Shown here one piece after another: positions 5,633 to 35,449 of a stretch of DNA of 37,500 nucleotides; position 1 is the stretch's first letter, and each line of letters begins with the position of its first letter. Source of the stretch: Rhizobium sp. Q54 (GTDB lineage Bacteria > Pseudomonadota > Alphaproteobacteria > UBA2966 > CAIVPW01); assembly GCA_945889645.1 (NCBI GenBank), contig CAMDCA010000012.1, positions 1 to 37,500 on the forward strand, read 5' to 3'. Position numbers and translations under genes: made by a program. The notes beneath the pieces were generated by a model. The model did not search any database. It saw only the letters and a program-made list of their open reading frames with translations, and was not told the origin of the DNA.

Positions 5633-6271
5633 ATGCCAACCGCTCGCAAGCGCTCCCGACGCCAGTCAGCCCTACCGCGCGACGACCGCACCCGCGCCGT
5701 CGCCGCTGCTCTGCGCATCGCCGCCGATGAGGGGTGGAATGCCGCCACGCTTGATCGCATCGCTGCCGAAGCGGAACTGAGTCTTGAAGCGCTGCAGGCG
5801 ATGTTTCCGTCGCGCGCCGCTCTGCTGGTCGCGTTCGTCGGCGATATCGACCGCGACATGCTGGCGCGTGCCGCTGGCGTCGATGGCGGCGACTCGCCGC
5901 GCGATCGTCTGTTCGGTGTGCTGATGGCGCGCCTCGACGCGCTGCGGCCGTACCGCAACGCCGTGACGTCGATCGCCCGCGCCGCGCCTCTTGAGCCGGC
6001 GACGGCGTGCGCGCTGGTTGTGGCGACGCGCCGCTCGCTGGCATGGATGCTGGCGGCGGCCGGAATCTCGCACACCGGAATTGATGGCGCGCTGCGCATG
6101 AAGGGCCTCGGCGTCATCTTCGCGTCCACCCTGTGGGCATGGTCGCGCGACGACAGCGCAGACTTGTCCGCCACCATGGCGCACCTCGATCGCCAGCTGC
6201 TCCGGGTCGAGAAGTTTCTCGGCATTCTGCAAGGCATCGCCACGCCGCGCGCGCGGAGCGCGCGCGCCTGA
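5633..6271 (+). CDS. TetR-family regulator with COQ9-like C-terminal half
   Basis: A 212-residue protein. After a basic N-terminus (MPTARKRSRRQ) comes a TetR helix-turn-helix: TRAVAAALRIAADEGWNAATLDRIAAEAELSLEALQ... with the recognition region at about residues 38-55. The C-terminal half is helical (RRSLAWMLAAAGI, TLWAWSRDDSADLSATMAHLDRQL) and recalls the COQ9/RpsU-divergent lipid-binding family. That would fit the nearby ubiK, but this is inference. The ATG at 5633 is preferred over the in-frame ATG at 5555, whose extension runs through the palindromic repeat. The stop is one base before the DUF1295 start, so the two are probably co-transcribed. Confidence 0.8.
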   Translation: MPTARKRSRRQSALPRDDRTRAVAAALRIAADEGWNAATLDRIAAEAELSLEALQAMFPSRAALLVAFVGDIDRDMLARAAGVDGGDSPRDRLFGVLMARLDALRPYRNAVTSIARAAPLEPATACALVVATRRSLAWMLAAAGISHTGIDGALRMKGLGVIFASTLWAWSRDDSADLSATMAHLDRQLLRVEKFLGILQGIATPRARSARA

Positions 6272-6272
6272 A

Positions 6273-7073
6273 ATGTCCGTTCTGACGGCTGTTGCCGGCA
6301 CTGCGGTCATCGCGGTGGCGCTCTCGCTCGCCATGGTGCGCGCCTGGACGATGTGGCGGCGCACGCGCAACGGCGGCTGGATCGACGTCACCTGGACGCA
6401 CGCGGTTGGAATCTGTGGCGGCCTAGCGGCGATTGCGCCGCTACCGGGTACGCCGTCGTCCCTGCGCGATGGCGTCGTGGCGGCGGCGGCCCTGTCGTGG
6501 GCGCTGCGCCTTGGCGGCCATCTGGACGGGCGCACCCGCGCACGTCCTAACGATCCGCGCTATGCCGCGCTCGTCGCCGGGTGGGGCGCGCAAGCCGAGG
6601 CGCGCATGTTCCGCTTCTGCCAGCTGCAGGCGCTGTTCGCGTTGCCGCTGGTCGCGTCGATTGCCCTGGCGGCGCACAACCGCGCAGGCCCAATCGGCTT
6701 GCAAGACATCGTCGCGCTTGCGGTGCTGGCCGTGGGCATCGCCGGCGCGTCCGCCGCCGATCGGCAGCTGGAGCGCTACGTCGTCGGCCGCCGTGGCGGC
6801 ATTTGCGACACCGGGCTGTGGCGCCATTCGCGCCACCCCAACTACTTCTTCGAATGGCTGGGCTGGTGTGCCTGGCCGATCTTCGCCATCGAGGTCACCG
6901 GCGCCGCGCCGCTCGGTTGGCTGGCGTTGACGGCGCCGGCGGTCATGTACGTGCTGCTGGTCTACGTCTCCGGCATTCCACCGCTGGAGGCGCACATGCT
7001 GCGCACGCGGGGCGAAGCGTGGCGCGCCTACGCGGCACGCACACGGGCCTTCTGGCCGCTGCCGATCAGGTGA
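6273..7073 (+). CDS. DUF1295 membrane protein (steroid 5-alpha-reductase-like)
   Basis: A 266-residue integral membrane protein with about six hydrophobic segments. The DUF1295 marks are the early NGGWIDVTW stretch, RLGGHLDGRTRARPNDPRY, the diagnostic HSRHPNYFFEWLGW near residue 190, and the C-terminal GEAWRAYAARTRAFWPLP. The family resembles steroid 5-alpha-reductases and isoprenylcysteine methyltransferases, so it probably acts on a lipid; the substrate is unknown. It follows the TetR/COQ9-like gene with one base between them and overlaps the convergent DUF2177 gene by 8 bp. Confidence 0.88.
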   Translation: MSVLTAVAGTAVIAVALSLAMVRAWTMWRRTRNGGWIDVTWTHAVGICGGLAAIAPLPGTPSSLRDGVVAAAALSWALRLGGHLDGRTRARPNDPRYAALVAGWGAQAEARMFRFCQLQALFALPLVASIALAAHNRAGPIGLQDIVALAVLAVGIAGASAADRQLERYVVGRRGGICDTGLWRHSRHPNYFFEWLGWCAWPIFAIEVTGAAPLGWLALTAPAVMYVLLVYVSGIPPLEAHMLRTRGEAWRAYAARTRAFWPLPIR

Positions 7074-7470
7074 CGGCGCGCGTCACGGCGGCGCTCACCG
7101 CCGCCGCGATTGCCGAGGCCACTGCACCCCACGCCATGTCGGCCAGCGTCAACGTCAGCGTCCAGTTGCGCAGCGTCGCGTAGTTGGTGAGGTCGTAGGT
7201 CGCATAGGCGATCACGCCGAACAGCGCGCCCATCGTCGCCGCGTGGGCGACGGAGTCGCGCGCCAACGCGCCGTTGATCGCGAACACCACCAGACCCGCG
7301 GCGTAGACCAGATAGAAGAGTACGGCCGGTAGCCAATTCACGGCGGGCAGCACGATGTCGCCCAGGGTAGGCCGGTAGAGGCGAGGCCCCATCGAGGTCA
7401 GCCACACCGCGTCGAGCGCCCCAAAAGCGACGAGTGCAACGGCATACGAGATGACGGTCGGCACGGCCAC
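7066..7470 (-). CDS. DUF2177 small membrane protein
   Basis: A 134-residue protein with four predicted membrane helices and the DUF2177 features FGALDAVWLTSMGPRLYRP, a conserved central AINGALARDS and YATYDLTNYATLRNW. No biochemical role is established. The start is GTG at 7470; a second in-frame GTG lies two codons later. DUF1295 and DUF2177 proteins are often found close together, which suggests a shared lipid- or envelope-related task, but here they are convergent. Its last codons overlap the end of the DUF1295 gene. Confidence 0.85.
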   Translation of the reverse strand: MAVPTVISYAVALVAFGALDAVWLTSMGPRLYRPTLGDIVLPAVNWLPAVLFYLVYAAGLVVFAINGALARDSVAHAATMGALFGVIAYATYDLTNYATLRNWTLTLTLADMAWGAVASAIAAAVSAAVTRAVT

Positions 7471-7606: not shown

Positions 7607-8704
7607 ATGTTTGGACGTCGCTCATTTCTTGCCGGCGTTGCCGGATCGATCGCGCTTGCGGGCGTAGCACGCGCGCAGCAGGCACCCGCACCGGCCGCCG
7701 GTGCCGCGCCTGCAGCACCCGCCGCTCCGGCAGTTGCGCCGGTACCCGGGCCTGTGCGTCGCGTCGCCATCGCCAGCGGCACCGTCGCTGCCGAGAACAT
7801 GCTTGAGGGCAACGGCGGCGATGCTGGCTGGCTCGCATTCTTTAATGAATTGAAGGCGCAGGGTTTCGTCACCGGCACCAACATCGCGTTCGAGCGCTAT
7901 TCCGGCGCCCGCTTCAACGGTGTGCGCCGCCTGCAGGGCAACAGCTGGAACGCTCTCGGCACTGCCGTCGGCACCGCCAAGCCCGACCTCATCGTCACGA
8001 CGTCGAGCTACATCGCGCGCGGCGCCAATGCCGCCAACGCCGATCTGCCGATCGTCTTCATCCTTGGTGACGCCCAGGCCTCCGGCCTGGTGCAGAACCT
8101 CGCCGCACCGGGCGGCACCATGACCGGCGTCACCGCCGGCGCGGGCGCCACCCGCGAGGCGATGCGCGTCGCCCTGCTCAAGGAAGCCGTGCCGGCCACC
8201 AGCAAGATCGCCTACCTGATCAAGAGCCAGGCCGAGTCACCCACCGCGTGGGGCGCGGCCATGCTCGCCGCCGCGACCGGCACGACGCCGGCGTTCTTCG
8301 ATGACGTGAAGGACGACGTCGGTCTCGACGCCACCGCCTACCTGCGCGCCCTGATGGACGCCAAGGCCGGCGGCGCCAACGGCCTCGTCGTCGCCGAAGG
8401 CATCGACCTGTCGGAGTTCTCGGCGCTGCTCGGCAACTACTCGTTGGCGATGAAGATGCCCGGCATCGCGCCGTACCGCGACTACGTCGTCGGCGGCGGC
8501 CTGATGAGCTTCGGTCCCAACTACAACGACATGTTCAAGACGGCCGCCACCGTGGCGGCGCGCGTCATGAAGGGCGAAAAGCCGGCCACCATCGCCGTCG
8601 CCCAGCCGGCGCCGGAACTGGTGATCAGCCAGCGCAACGCCCGGAACCTTGGCGTCACCATCCCGCCGAGCGTGGTGATGAAGGCCAAAGAAGTCCTGAT
8701 GTAA
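7607..8704 (+). CDS. ABC transporter substrate-binding protein (PF04392 type), orphan
   Basis: A 365-residue exported protein. The N-terminus MFGRRSFLAGVAGSIALAGVARAQ is a signal peptide with a twin-arginine RRSFLAG motif, followed by an Ala/Pro-rich linker (about residues 24-50). The body begins RRVAIASGT and matches the ABC_sub_bind family: GWLAFFNELKAQGFVTGTNI, DLIVTTSS, LPIVFILGDAQASGLVQNLA, and near the end RNARNLGVTIPPSVVMKAKEVL. GAGGGAGG lies 9-16 bases before the ATG. No permease or ATPase is next to it, so its transporter partner, if any, is elsewhere and the ligand is unknown. A strong terminator follows. Confidence 0.9.
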   Translation: MFGRRSFLAGVAGSIALAGVARAQQAPAPAAGAAPAAPAAPAVAPVPGPVRRVAIASGTVAAENMLEGNGGDAGWLAFFNELKAQGFVTGTNIAFERYSGARFNGVRRLQGNSWNALGTAVGTAKPDLIVTTSSYIARGANAANADLPIVFILGDAQASGLVQNLAAPGGTMTGVTAGAGATREAMRVALLKEAVPATSKIAYLIKSQAESPTAWGAAMLAAATGTTPAFFDDVKDDVGLDATAYLRALMDAKAGGANGLVVAEGIDLSEFSALLGNYSLAMKMPGIAPYRDYVVGGGLMSFGPNYNDMFKTAATVAARVMKGEKPATIAVAQPAPELVISQRNARNLGVTIPPSVVMKAKEVLM

Positions 8705-29104: not shown

Positions 29105-29752
29105 CTAGATCCCCAGCAAGGGCTGGATCAGCCGTATCGCGGCATTGCGAAACCGCAGGGGCGCGCGTGTCACCGCCAGCGCCAGGCATTCGCCGTCCCG
29201 GCTGACCACCGGTTGGTGTGTGACCGAATCATCCAAGTTCGCCACGTCGCCGCGCGCGAATACTCCGCACTCGTCTCGATAAGAGCCCGTGAGCACCAGC
29301 GTCAGTTCCTGCCCTTGATGCGAATGCACCGGAACGCGCGTCCCCGGCGACAGGCGGAACAGTCGGGCCGTCGCCGCTTTGGACGTCGTCAGCACCACTT
29401 GGCGCAATCCCGGCGCAATCCAACGCCAGCCACCGCGCGCCAGTTGGTCGCTCACATAGCCGCGCAACGGCTGCGTCAGCGCGGTGTTGGCGCCTGCATC
29501 AGCCTTCGGCACGGAACTCTCATCGGCTTGCATGCCGATGCGATCGAGCACCTTGGCCAGGCTGCTGATCGACATCGCCTCCGGCTCGCCGCTCTCCAGC
29601 AGCGCGCCGCCCAGGTTCTCGGCCTCGGCCACCGTCGAGCGGCACGCCGGGCACAGGGCGATGTGGCTCGCGACCAGGATTGAGCTTGCCTCGTCGAGTC
29701 CGCCCGCGGCGTAATCGAGCAGCAGGTCTTGGCTGGTGTGATGCTGAATCAT
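29105..29752 (-). CDS. chrR: ChrR-type zinc anti-sigma factor with cupin domain
   Basis: A 215-residue anti-sigma factor. The N-terminal zinc-binding part has IQHHTSQDLLLDYAAGGLDEASSILVASHIALCPACRSTV with the His and CPAC ligands (residues about 4-38). The C-terminal cupin has RLSPGTRVPVHSHQGQELTLVLTGSYRDE and GDVANLDDSVTHQP, with His and Glu metal ligands. In Rhodobacter sphaeroides, ChrR holds RpoE until singlet oxygen or peroxide triggers release. Its ATG overlaps the sigma gene stop (ATGA). Confidence 0.95.
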   Translation of the reverse strand: MIQHHTSQDLLLDYAAGGLDEASSILVASHIALCPACRSTVAEAENLGGALLESGEPEAMSISSLAKVLDRIGMQADESSVPKADAGANTALTQPLRGYVSDQLARGGWRWIAPGLRQVVLTTSKAATARLFRLSPGTRVPVHSHQGQELTLVLTGSYRDECGVFARGDVANLDDSVTHQPVVSRDGECLALAVTRAPLRFRNAAIRLIQPLLGI

Positions 29753-30318
29753 TCCTTCACGCCGCGCAGCGCTTCGCGCAACCGGCCGAAGGCCAGGCGC
29801 AGGCGCGATTTGACGGTGCCGAGCGGCAGGCCGAGTTCGTGCGCGATATCTCCGTGCGCCTTGTGCAAGAAGAACGACATGCGCACCACCAAGGCTTGGT
29901 CCGCCGGAAGCGACGTCACTGCGTCCTGAACGCGCGCGGCGCGCGTGCCGACGTCAATCGATTCGTCCGGACCGGGTTCCGAATCGCGCACCAGGGCGGG
30001 GTCGTCGGGATCGAACTCCGGCCGGTTCTCGCGCCGGAACGCGTCGATCTGGGTGTTGCGGGCGATGGCGTAAATCCAGGTCGCCGCCGACGCCTTCGCC
30101 GCGTCGAAATGCGTCGCCTTGTTCCACACCTTGAGCATCACCTCTTGAGACAGGTCGTCGGCCGCCGCCGCGTCGGCCCCCTGGCGGCGCAGGTAGCCTT
30201 TGACCCGCGGCGCAAAGTGTCGGAACAGGGCAAGAAACGCGGCGCGGTCTTGCCGCTCGGCGACCGCGCGCAACAACGCCTCCGGTGAATCAACGCCCGC
30301 GGACGCGATTCTCGGCAT
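29749..30318 (-). CDS. rpoE: ECF11-type sigma factor, RpoE of the RpoE-ChrR pair
   Basis: A 189-residue sigma factor. Region 2 is ADDLSQEVMLKVWNKATHFDAAKASAATWIYAIARNTQIDAFRRENRPEFDPDDP. Region 4 is AVTSLPADQALVVRMSFFLHKAHGDIAHELGLPLGTVKSRLRLAFGRLREAL. The DPDDP linker stretch and the ChrR partner identify the ECF11 group, which answers singlet oxygen and organic peroxide. ATG 30318 fits the family N-terminus; the longer frame to 30402 reaches the promoter's predicted start site. The message should begin near 30402, from a promoter that matches the one facing cfa. Confidence 0.94.
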   Translation of the reverse strand: MPRIASAGVDSPEALLRAVAERQDRAAFLALFRHFAPRVKGYLRRQGADAAAADDLSQEVMLKVWNKATHFDAAKASAATWIYAIARNTQIDAFRRENRPEFDPDDPALVRDSEPGPDESIDVGTRAARVQDAVTSLPADQALVVRMSFFLHKAHGDIAHELGLPLGTVKSRLRLAFGRLREALRGVKE

Positions 30319-30408
30319 CACGGCAAAATGGGGGGCGCGCCGAGGCCTAGCGGGCCCCGGACGGGGGAGAAGGGAGCCGATCGGCAGGGCTTCATCGCGC
30401 ACACCCTG

Positions 30409-30436
30409 GATACGCGCGCTCCGCCGCCTTGGATCA
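30409..30436 (-). promoter_or_regulatory. Predicted RpoE (ECF11) promoter of rpoE-chrR
   Basis: Reverse strand TGATCC (30436-30431), 16 bp, CGTATC (30414-30409). TGATCC is the -35 known for R. sphaeroides RpoE; an identical pair with identical spacing faces cfa. Leader of about 85 nt. Confidence 0.8.
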
Positions 30437-30479
30437 CCAAGATGATTTTCGTGCTCACGGGCCGATCCTAGCGTGGCGG

Positions 30480-30507
30480 TGATCCAAGGTGTTGGCCGAG
30501 GCGTATC
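30480..30507 (+). promoter_or_regulatory. Predicted RpoE (ECF11) promoter of cfa
   Basis: TGATCC (30480-30485), 16 bp, CGTATC (30502-30507). The surrounding bases GGTGATCCAAGG and GCGTATC are shared with the opposite promoter. The start site would fall at about 30513-30515, on the cfa ATG itself. Confidence 0.8.
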
Positions 30508-30513
30508 TGGTGC

Positions 30514-31731
30514 ATGGCTCCCATCACTTTCCTATTTCCGCTCGCCCGCCTGTTCCTCCCCAGCGCCACGTCGCCGCGGGTGCCGGCGCTGCTGCAGAGC
30601 GAGTTGCGCCGCGGCAGCCTGACGCTGGAATGGCCCGACGGCGCGCAGATGCGGGTCGACACCGGCGAGCCCGGACCGGCCGCCCACGTCGCGGTGCGGC
30701 GCCTACGTGCGCTCGCCCGGCTGCTGACCGGCGGCGGCATCGGCTTCGCCGAGGCCTACGTGGACGGCGACTGGGACAGCGACGACCCCGCCGCCGTGGT
30801 CGAGCTCGCCGCCTGCAATCGCAAGGCGATGACCGGCGCGTTCGTCGGCAGCCTGCTGTCGCGCATCGCTACCCGCCTGCGCCACCTCCGCAACAGCAAC
30901 ACGCGGTCGGGCAGCCGGCGCAACATCGGCGCCCACTACGACCTCGGCAACGACTTCTACGCGCTGTGGCTCGACGCCGGCATGACGTACTCCGCTGCCG
31001 TCTACACCGACGCGGCCAGCACGCTGGAAGCGGCCCACGACGAGAAATGTCGCCGCATGTTCGAACTGCTCGACGCCCGCCCGGGCCAGCATGTGCTGGA
31101 GATCGGCTGCGGCTGGGGCGGCTTCGCCTGCTATGCGGCGCACCGCGGAGTGCGCGTCACCGGCGTCACGCTGTCGGCCGAGCAGTACGAGTTTGCCCAG
31201 GCCCGGGTCACCGCAGAGCGCCTGCGCGGCCGGGTCGAGATTCTACGTGCCGACTACCGCGATCTGACCGGCACGTTCGACCACATCGTGTCGATCGAGA
31301 TGATCGAAGCGGTCGGCGCCGCCTATTGGCCGGTCTATTTCCGCCGCCTGTCCGAGCTGCTGGCGCCGGGTGGCCGCGTCGCGCTGCAGGCCATCACCAT
31401 CGACGACGCCTTGTTCGACGAGTACTGCCGCGATCCCGACTTCATCCAGACCCACATCTTTCCCGGCGGCATGCTGCTGTCGCCATCCAAGCTCGCTGAG
31501 CACGCATCCAAGGCCGGCTTCCGCGTCGCCGCCAGCGCGCGCTACGGCGAGCACTACGCGCGCACCGTGTCGGCATGGCGCGAACGCTTCGCCGCCGCCT
31601 GGCCGCGCATCGAGCAGTTGGGGTTCGAAGAACGCTTCCGCCGCCTGTGGTCGTTCTACCTCGCCTACTGCGAGGGCGGCTTCCGCTCGGGCGCCATCGA
31701 CCTGCACCAGGTCGCGCTGACCAAGACCTAG
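30514..31731 (+). CDS. cfa: Cyclopropane-fatty-acyl-phospholipid synthase family protein
   Basis: A 405-residue SAM-dependent methyltransferase that adds methylene or methyl groups to unsaturated acyl chains of membrane lipids. Marks: the N-terminal GGIGFAEAYVDGDWDSDDPAAVVEL; SRRNIGAHYDLGNDFYALWLDAGMTYSAAVY (substrate loop); SAM motif VLEIGCGWGGFACYAAHRG; SIEMIEAVG; and FIQTHIFPGGMLLSP. It is divergent from rpoE-chrR with a matching RpoE promoter; CfaA is a known member of the RpoE response in R. sphaeroides. The ATG coincides with the predicted transcript start, so translation may be leaderless. Its stop is 4 bp from the convergent amine oxidase stop. Confidence 0.94.
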   Translation: MAPITFLFPLARLFLPSATSPRVPALLQSELRRGSLTLEWPDGAQMRVDTGEPGPAAHVAVRRLRALARLLTGGGIGFAEAYVDGDWDSDDPAAVVELAACNRKAMTGAFVGSLLSRIATRLRHLRNSNTRSGSRRNIGAHYDLGNDFYALWLDAGMTYSAAVYTDAASTLEAAHDEKCRRMFELLDARPGQHVLEIGCGWGGFACYAAHRGVRVTGVTLSAEQYEFAQARVTAERLRGRVEILRADYRDLTGTFDHIVSIEMIEAVGAAYWPVYFRRLSELLAPGGRVALQAITIDDALFDEYCRDPDFIQTHIFPGGMLLSPSKLAEHASKAGFRVAASARYGEHYARTVSAWRERFAAAWPRIEQLGFEERFRRLWSFYLAYCEGGFRSGAIDLHQVALTKT

Positions 31732-34321: not shown

Positions 34322-34499
34322 GCCCAAATCCCCGAAGCCAATCGAGATCGAACCGGGCGCGTGGCAGCGTTTCGAGCGGCTGGTATCTGCCGCCGGGAAA
34401 ACGCCGCCACAACCAAAGGCCGCTACTTCTTCCGCCTCAAAGCGTGCGCCAGCAACGAAACCAAAAGCGCCGCGTACTCGCGCCCGTACGCCTTCTTAA
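34320..34499 (+). CDS. 59-residue basic protein nested between transposase and passenger
   Basis: ATG 34320 opens MPKSPKPIEIEPGAWQRFER, followed by LVSAAGKTPPQPKAATSSASK and an Ala/Pro/Lys/Arg-rich tail, ending at TAA 34497-34499. The start overlaps the passenger ATG on the other strand (CATG), and its stop overlaps the transposase stop (TTAA), so it fills the gap exactly. I recall similar short proteins (IEMxPxAWxRFExAV) beside transposases in other proteobacteria, but cannot check. It may bind DNA or the transposase through the basic tail. Confidence 0.6.
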   Translation: MPKSPKPIEIEPGAWQRFERLVSAAGKTPPQPKAATSSASKRAPATKPKAPRTRARTPS

Positions 34500-35443
34500 G
34501 CGGCGGAACCTTCGCGGTTAGTCCGCCGATACGTGAGGCGCTTCCCCACGATGCCCGCGAGCGCCTTGCTCGTGCGGGCCGCGTCCGTCACGCCAAGGCC
34601 GGAACGCTCGTTGTAGCGAAAATCGAACTCGCCCAAGTAGCGCTTCAGGTGCTGGCTAGAAACGTGGTGGTACGTGCCAACGATGCCGCGCTTCAGGATC
34701 GAAAAGTAACCCTCCACCGTGTTTGTGTGCGCCGGGCCGCGAACGTACTCGTCAATCGAGTGGTTCACCGTCTCGTGCTTCGCGAAGTGCGAACCGTGCA
34801 AGCGGTACTGGCCCGCCTCGTCCGTCATGAGCGTGGACGCCTGATGGATTTGCTCGGTCAGGATCGGGCGCAGCGTCTTGGCGCTCACGTCTGCGATATG
34901 GCGCGACTGGACGCGGCCCTTGCGCTCTACCAGCGAGAACACGATTTCCTTGTCAACCGCACCCGTGCCGCCAGTGCGCTTGCTCTTGTGTTTGTTCTTC
35001 GCCTTGCCGCCAACATACGTCTCGTCCGCTTCGACGTAGATGCCCGCACCGCCGATGGGCGCGGGGGCCAGTTCGCGCATGGCCTCGCGCAAGCGATGGC
35101 ACATGAACCAAGTGGACTTGTACGACACGCCAATCATGCGGTGGATTTGGTGCGCGCTCATGCCCTTCTTGGAAGCGCACATCAGGAACGCCGCCATGAG
35201 CCACTTGTTCAGCGGGATGTGGGAGCGCTCGAAAAGGGTGCCGACCGTAACGGTGAACTGCCCACGGCATTCAGCGCTGTTGCACTGGTACCAGCCCTCA
35301 CGGGTGGTCAGGGGGGTAGCCGCGCCGACCGTGCCGCACTTCGGGCAGACCGGGCCAGCGGGCCACAGGTGGGTTTCCAGCCAGGCGCGCGCCTTGGTTT
35401 CGTCTTGGAAAATCGCGTTGCTCAGTTCGTTCGTCTTGGCCAT
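34496..35443 (-). CDS. IS1595-family (ISXO2-like) transposase
   Basis: 315 residues from ATG 35443. The N-terminal zinc ribbon has Cys33-Cys36 (VCPKCG) and Cys54/Cys59 (YQCNSAECRGQF). A helix-turn-helix follows (KKGMSAHQIHRMIGVSYKSTWFMCHRLREAM). The catalytic domain has Asp140 (VEADETYVGG), Asp208 (LMTDEAGQY) and Glu244 (NTVEGYFSILKRG), a complete DDE triad. TTG 35449 is in frame but lies upstream of the predicted transcript start, so ATG 35443 is used. No frameshift or stop is seen. Confidence 0.93.
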   Translation of the reverse strand: MAKTNELSNAIFQDETKARAWLETHLWPAGPVCPKCGTVGAATPLTTREGWYQCNSAECRGQFTVTVGTLFERSHIPLNKWLMAAFLMCASKKGMSAHQIHRMIGVSYKSTWFMCHRLREAMRELAPAPIGGAGIYVEADETYVGGKAKNKHKSKRTGGTGAVDKEIVFSLVERKGRVQSRHIADVSAKTLRPILTEQIHQASTLMTDEAGQYRLHGSHFAKHETVNHSIDEYVRGPAHTNTVEGYFSILKRGIVGTYHHVSSQHLKRYLGEFDFRYNERSGLGVTDAARTSKALAGIVGKRLTYRRTNREGSAA

Positions 35444-35449
35444 AGCCAA

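Follow-up and report, generated by a model that had tools for sequence, protein, structure and literature searches.

We propose that a stretch of 99 bp in the genome of Rhizobium sp. Q54 is a bidirectional sigmaE (ECF11) control point, probably one from which both mRNAs are leaderless and rpoE is translated with an N-terminal extension. The stretch separates rpoE-chrR from a divergent methyltransferase gene and lies within the window analysed here, that is, positions 1 to 37,500 (37,500 nucleotides) of contig CAMDCA010000012.1 in assembly GCA_945889645.1. The features concerned are listed in Table 1.

Table 1. Promoter elements, genes and start codons of the divergent rpoE-chrR and cfa/ufaM region (window coordinates)
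Feature	Position	Strand	Basis
-35 TGATCC, rpoE-chrR promoter	30431..30436	-	perfect motif match
-10 CGTATC, rpoE-chrR promoter	30409..30414; core CGTA 30411-30414	-	perfect motif match
rpoE GTG start codon and predicted transcription start, 8 nt after CGTA	30400..30402	-	inferred
rpoE (ECF11 sigma factor), 217 aa from GTG	29749..30402	-	homology, domains
chrR, zinc-binding anti-sigma factor with cupin domain	29105..29752	-	homology, domains
-35 TGATCC, cfa/ufaM promoter	30480..30485	+	perfect motif match
-10 CGTATC, cfa/ufaM promoter	30502..30507; core CGTA 30502-30505	+	perfect motif match
cfa/ufaM ATG start codon and predicted transcription start, 8 nt after CGTA	30514..30516	+	inferred
SAM-dependent fatty-acyl methyltransferase, Cfa/UfaM family, 405 aa	30514..31731	+	homology

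TGATCC-N16-CGTATC occurs between the two genes on both strands without a mismatch, at 30436..30409 (-) and 30480..30507 (+). The extended identity of the two sites described in an earlier note on this DNA is exact: GGTGATCCAAGG (12 nt) and GCGTATC are common to both. The -35 boxes are 43 nt apart and the -35 regions constitute an inverted repeat of 12 nt. Judged by sequence, the pair consists of standard sigmaE/ChrR (ECF11) promoters, a type that is already known. The same TGATCC-N16-CGTA is found in the ECF11 sigmaE-ChrR systems of Rhodobacter sphaeroides, Pseudomonas syringae (PSPTO_1043) and Shewanella oneidensis (RpoE2). For P. syringae the published ECF11 consensus is TGATCC-n16-CGTA (PMC5507510), and in Shewanella TGATCC is combined with CGTATT or CGTAAT (PMC4336711). 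The R. sphaeroides RpoE promoter is given as TGATCC(N15)GCGTA, which equals N16-CGTA (PMC5036791); the earlier note, too, had likened the -35 element to that of R. sphaeroides RpoE. The accompanying idea, that CGTATC departs from a TAAGA type and reflects a -10 preference of this lineage alone, has to be abandoned because CGTA is the published ECF11 consensus (PMC5507510, PMC4336711, PMC5036791). As a prediction, the proposal that RpoE drives both itself and cfa agrees with the published core regulon, where rpoE-chrR and a cfa homologue are reported (PMC5507510, PMC6852236). Targets of known ECF11 sigmaE-ChrR systems include rpoE-chrR, cfa/ufaM, ufaD and SDR genes, as predicted here. The window differs from those systems in that the methyltransferase gene, rather than ufaD, faces rpoE, and in that both start codons abut the predicted +1.

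The control point might operate as follows. ChrR would hold RpoE inactive until singlet oxygen or peroxide frees it, and RpoE holoenzyme would then bind TGATCC-N16-CGTA on each strand. Leftward transcription of rpoE-chrR would provide positive feedback together with new anti-sigma factor, and rightward transcription would yield the UfaM/Cfa-type methyltransferase, by which membrane acyl chains might be modified. With GTG (rpoE) and ATG (cfa) positioned at the expected +1, translation would start from the 5´ end without a Shine-Dalgarno site. In the case of rpoE, the leaderless start would lengthen the protein at its N-terminus, in front of the sigma2 domain.

The assignment of rpoE and chrR, which overlap by ATGA, is straightforward. 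The window RpoE matches Pfam Sigma70_r2 and r4, with R. sphaeroides RpoE as its best solved relative (E 9.6e-43). ChrR scores 191.7 bits against TIGR02451 (cut-off 124.5), matches Cupin_7 and contains HIALCPAC, an instance of the zinc-binding HxxxCxxC. Its residues H143, H145, E149 and H179, which we take to be the cupin metal site, are invariant in 16 sequences. When RpoE is read from GTG, its first ~38 residues constitute the extension. In a structural model of the extended protein (9 sequences), pLDDT stays below 50 for the first 35 residues and the core is of high confidence from residue 40; the extension is predicted to be disordered, and it is variable.

The divergent gene deserves a closer look with respect to its label. 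Its product (METHYLTRANSFERASE) is a member of the Cfa/CMAS family. Among solved structures it matches the cyclopropane synthase 6bqc best (E 1.3e-55), and NCBIfam Cfa models match as well, all of them below their cut-offs; these matches would suit an ordinary cyclopropane fatty acid synthase as opposed to a UfaM-type furan-fatty-acid methylase, a possible but rather doubtful identity in view of the gene's homologues elsewhere. According to tblastn, three genus relatives carry a homologue with 67-70% identity downstream of ufaD; outside the genus, homologues with 44-51% identity follow ufaD homologues in 7 loci, 5 of them rhizobial. This synteny resembles that in R. palustris, where ufaM, ufaO and ufaD are neighbours with consecutive numbers (PMC7380195). 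Because syntenic homologues sit downstream of ufaD homologues, UfaM-type function is the better guess, and plain cfa gives way to a putative UfaM-type fatty-acyl methyltransferase as the more likely identity. UfaM (RSP2144 in R. sphaeroides) methylates cis-vaccenate en route to a furan fatty acid (PMC7380195). The UfaM/UfaD/UfaO pathway, as described there, is under ChrR-sigmaE control and its Cfa-superfamily methyltransferase is encoded near ufaD homologues, features that the present family would share. In this genome, in contrast, the ufaD beside an rpoE relic is truncated and fused with ufaM, and there are two full-length ufaM/cfa copies, one of which faces rpoE. In the window, ufaD is not adjacent to the methyltransferase gene, in front of which stands the ECF11 promoter. 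The N-terminus that results from the ATG in Table 1 aligns by eye with the proteins and starts of relatives.

In both directions the window's start codon stands exactly 8 nt after CGTA, and relatives are alike. Since this places the codons at the expected +1, both mRNAs are predicted to be leaderless; there is no room for a Shine-Dalgarno site. We compared rpoE-chrR loci from three sources: relatives (16 loci), a single-protein scan of named genomes (15) and a class-wide sample of 385 genomes. In that sample 119 gave a match at E <= 1e-40, from which 30 loci plus 87 further regions were taken, the few other matches being already in the set. The resulting 148 loci comprise 145 with an rpoE match, 129 with chrR downstream and 124 that are distinct. 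By the rule of TGATCC (at most one mismatch)-N16-CGTA within 350 nt upstream of rpoE, the promoter is present at 94 of the 124 distinct alphaproteobacterial loci, 82 of them with perfect TGATCC; the remaining 30 have no promoter by that rule.

An open in-frame ATG follows CGTA at 7-11 nt in 58 of the 94 promoter loci, GTG or TTG does so in 6 (window included), and neither is found in 30; the range of 7-11 nt was set after inspection of some loci that themselves belong to the 124-locus set. At 8-10 nt, ATG accounts for 53 of 94 in-frame codons; out-of-frame triplets at this distance give 1 of 188, and codons further downstream 65 of 1827 (naive binomial 3e-51, for loci that are related). All 53 are open to the sigma core. 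Stop codons are distributed as follows: from 8 nt after CGTA to the core, the 94 loci contain 10 among 4518 in-frame codons versus 208 and 144 in the other frames. With loci chosen regardless of frame, the stretch is stop-free in frame at 85 loci and in the other frames at 5 and 25. The absence of stops from 3069 codons of the leaderless group follows from the definition of that group and carries no evidential weight. From start to core, the 64 loci of the group span a median of 48 codons (range 26-96). On the RpoE tree the close-start trait needs 16 changes versus 25.4 in shuffles, with 0 of 500 shuffles as low, which indicates a trait that is inherited and was nevertheless lost or gained repeatedly; the loci are related and hence non-independent.

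A set from one family, Rhodobacteraceae, was collected later and comprises the 30 best among 112 genomes with a match, out of 198 (the best match to R. sphaeroides RpoE is 78% identical). The promoter is perfect in 30 of these 30, and an in-frame ATG stands exactly 8 nt after CGTA in 28. The two exceptions also possess a promoter-proximal ATG (at 8 and 10 nt), the frame of which closes after 23 and 30 codons. Their RpoE proteins are 78% and 76% identical to that of R. sphaeroides, and three others at 77% keep the frame. In these two loci (L201 and L204) the ORF of 23-30 codons ends before or near the rpoE start, as if a leaderless start had become an upstream ORF.

With an in-frame ATG held at 8-9 nt, the simplest reading is that +1 is its A. 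It is conceivable, and in our view unlikely, that the promoter-proximal start is used and +1 lies slightly upstream, which would give leaders of 1-5 nt in place of strictly leaderless mRNAs. The favoured distance is 8 or 9 nt with some loci at 10-11, and initiation positions of ECF sigma factors do differ: +1 was reported 6 bp downstream of the -10 box for B. japonicum ecfF (PMC3420878), whereas the -10 box of S. meliloti rpoE9 lies 9 nt upstream of the mapped +1 (PMC3616915). An exact distance from CGTA to +1 was found for no ECF11 promoter in the portions of the literature examined. Such short leaders are at odds with the narrowness of the peak, most of all with the Rhodobacteraceae, where nearly all starts share one distance; a peak at 8 nt is what one expects if +1 must be the A of ATG. 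In ecfF, +1 overlaps the annotated ATG, and its authors therefore preferred a later start (PMC3420878).

A later start also has to be considered for the rpoE of the window. The promoters would then be ordinary ECF11 promoters, translation would begin internally at ATG 30318 or TTG 30276/30273, and the stretch from 30402 would be a stop-free 5´ leader. In the solved R. sphaeroides RpoE, 14 residues precede the aligned core, as opposed to 41 in the window protein, which suits a shorter product. The codon next to the window's promoter is GTG; leaderless starts of S. meliloti are all AUG and non-AUG ones are inefficient in E. coli (PMC3616915), so GTG would make a weaker leaderless start and weakens the rpoE half of our case. 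A GGAGG string, perhaps by chance, precedes the TTG codons 30276/30273, and Shine-Dalgarno-like strings precede some internal in-frame start at 20 of the 64 leaderless-group loci, which makes internal rpoE starts possible. No Shine-Dalgarno-like sequence lies upstream of ATG 30318, however. The class-wide excess of in-frame ATG at 8-10 nt, every one open to the core, the depletion of stops in precisely this frame and the uniform distance in Rhodobacteraceae all speak against a mere leader, and we regard internal initiation as quite unlikely. As to the loci without a close start, an in-frame start within 60 nt of CGTA is preceded by a Shine-Dalgarno-like string in 18 of 30, a pattern to be expected of ordinary leaders.

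Internal starts do prevail in the ten public annotations checked. We inspected 12 named plasmid-borne alphaproteobacterial loci, picked from 101 matching records, and 10 of them have the promoter (8 with N16, 2 with N15) followed by an open in-frame ATG at 8 or 9 nt. Annotation places the rpoE start at that ATG in 2 of those 10, at an internal codon in 7, which would accord with internal initiation, and upstream of the promoter in 1. The last case is an Ensifer adhaerens plasmid (position 1285), where the annotated start could not be on the transcript because it precedes the rpoE promoter. Of the remaining two plasmid loci, one lacks an open frame from the promoter and the other lacks a promoter by the rule. 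Outside the class, a gammaproteobacterial Pseudoalteromonas locus has its promoter (TGATCT) 34 nt from the annotated ATG, and the scan found no promoter site at a Photobacterium locus. If leaderless initiation at the promoter-proximal codon is correct, the N-terminus of RpoE may be wrong in many records (8 of the 10 checked use another start), which is a class-wide and cheaply testable prediction.

Are leaderless starts a general rule of the regulon? The sample for other targets comprised 76 genomes and 120 listed matches in which the promoter is followed by ATG within 24 nt, rpoE being separated by hand. Among the matches listed, ATG lies at 8-10 nt in 10 of 16 rpoE rows. For other genes it does so in 15 of 57 listed matches (6.8 if flat) from genomes assigned RpoE or ChrR, and in 8 of 47 (5.6 if flat) from genomes assigned neither. 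We rejected the general rule because the excess outside rpoE is modest; predicted leaderless starts thus characterize mainly rpoE, together with a handful of other genes. By sequence, such putative leaderless genes include the window methyltransferase and, on contig C23, SDR and chalcone-isomerase-like genes, which start 8 and 9 nt after CGTA, respectively.

Leaderless transcripts as such are established in S. meliloti, where the start codon is 5´-terminal and a leader is missing, as predicted here (PMC3616915). What sets the present arrangement apart from that map is its link to a single promoter class and a single sigma gene throughout a class of bacteria. The word chrR has 0 occurrences in the main text of that paper (PMC3616915), and no description of a leaderless rpoE or chrR stands among the papers listed by our literature search, which covered mainly open-access journals. 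The promoters are known; the conserved start-codon arrangement at rpoE we did not find described among the papers listed.

The closest analogue is the SigR/SigR´-RsrA system of Streptomyces coelicolor, in which RsrA is a zinc-binding anti-sigma factor like ChrR (PMC4921905, PMC5472188). The autoregulated sigRp2 transcript encodes SigR´, which is longer by 55-58 residues at its N-terminus and reportedly unstable, being a Clp substrate (PMC4921905, PMC5472188). S. coelicolor has, in addition, a second promoter and a short stable isoform, SigR (PMC4921905, PMC5472188). The extension of the window RpoE would thus resemble SigR´ in design. As a tentative extrapolation, which we hold to be rather improbable as a whole, most alphaproteobacteria with a promoter-bearing sigmaE-ChrR operon might translate rpoE from a conserved leaderless start; the product would carry a disordered and fast-evolving tail that shortens the life of RpoE as in SigR´, and the outcome would be a self-limiting loop of separate origin. 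Were this true, stress-made RpoE would be translated by a route able to persist when ordinary initiation is impaired, and a stress regulon would use leaderless translation at its head. Much current annotation would lack the tail, as does the crystallised R. sphaeroides protein. The system would also be a natural one in which to ask why stress regulators use leaderless mRNAs and whether tails time the turnover of sigma factors.

Divergent pairs are not restricted to the window. A second, divergent site within 150 nt is present at 39 of the 94 promoter loci versus 2 of 94 control windows inside rpoE. The divergent partners, identified by eye, are FAD oxidoreductases (UfaD-like) in 35 of the 39 cases, a number favoured by our partner script, which listed frames with a glycine motif first. 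The remaining four are the window methyltransferase, one DUF1365-like protein, one SDR and one without clear identity. It is very improbable that the pair in the window is a single operator for another factor or a chance inverted repeat, with RpoE ignoring the cfa-side copy: the 12-nt repeat of the -35 regions would permit it, but the full N16 spacing and CGTA are present on both sides, divergent pairs recur at other rpoE-chrR loci, and published work counts a cfa/ufaM homologue among the members of the core regulon (PMC5507510, PMC7380195).

Within the window the pair comprises the only perfect sites. Near-matches are unenriched, as 4 matches with at most two mismatches stand against 2.54 expected and 33 of 100 shuffles reach 4. 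The genome is GC-rich (2.33 Mb, assembly 95% complete) and contains perfect TGATCC-Nx-CGTA 6, 10, 0 and 3 times for x = 15, 16, 17 and 18, so that chance alone would account for about three of the ten N16 sites. By eye, 6 of the ten lie at promoter positions (two on C12, three on C23, one on C61) and 4 within coding sequence (C11, C15, C25, C39); this division is approximate, since long open frames extend over most sites, the six included. The perfect motif is found 9 and 10 times on the forward and reverse strand, its backward control 0 and 1 times, a comparison that probably overstates the enrichment because the reversed pattern consists of other words. With one mismatch allowed, there are 101 motif matches versus 50 for the backward control (~2x). 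The earlier note had called for such a search upstream of stress genes, photolyase and peroxidase genes being its examples. The six sites placed by eye at promoter positions precede rpoE, the window methyltransferase gene, an SDR gene, a chalcone-isomerase-like gene, a truncated ufaD and a Rieske-protein gene. A photolyase gene was not found in the 95%-complete assembly (no PF00875 match). On C61 the Rieske-protein gene faces an ORF across a further divergent ECF11-like pair (2816-2903), one site of which is perfect and the other of which has a mismatch in TGATCC.

Some traces of the history of the locus are preserved. Four genus relatives have an ECF11 promoter that is directed at ufaD, away from rpoE, and one of these four has no rpoE-side promoter by the rule. 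On C23 of the present genome (7373-7698) we found a decayed rpoE promoter (N15) with N-terminal codons (MLACALQSGKP...) that faces the truncated ufaD and retains CGTA-8 nt-ATG. Next to it (7768-8208), the first ~81 codons of ufaD are joined to the last ~65 codons of ufaM, a fusion that apparently arose by deletion. A full ufaM occupies 5968-7194 (-) of the same contig; the other full copy is the one on C12 that faces rpoE-chrR. A distant horizontal origin of the window rpoE was considered and rejected, since it groups with three genus relatives with 100/100 support. Being of the same lineage, it more likely reached its position through a move or duplication within the genus than by distant transfer. 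Elsewhere in the genome, C2 (9255-10514) harbors a UfaD-like gene that is 46% identical to the UfaD of a genus relative and has one TAG inside the aligned stretch. Finally, the window contains at 34496-35449 (-) an ORF that by eye resembles a zinc-ribbon DDE transposase of the IS1595/ISXO2 kind.
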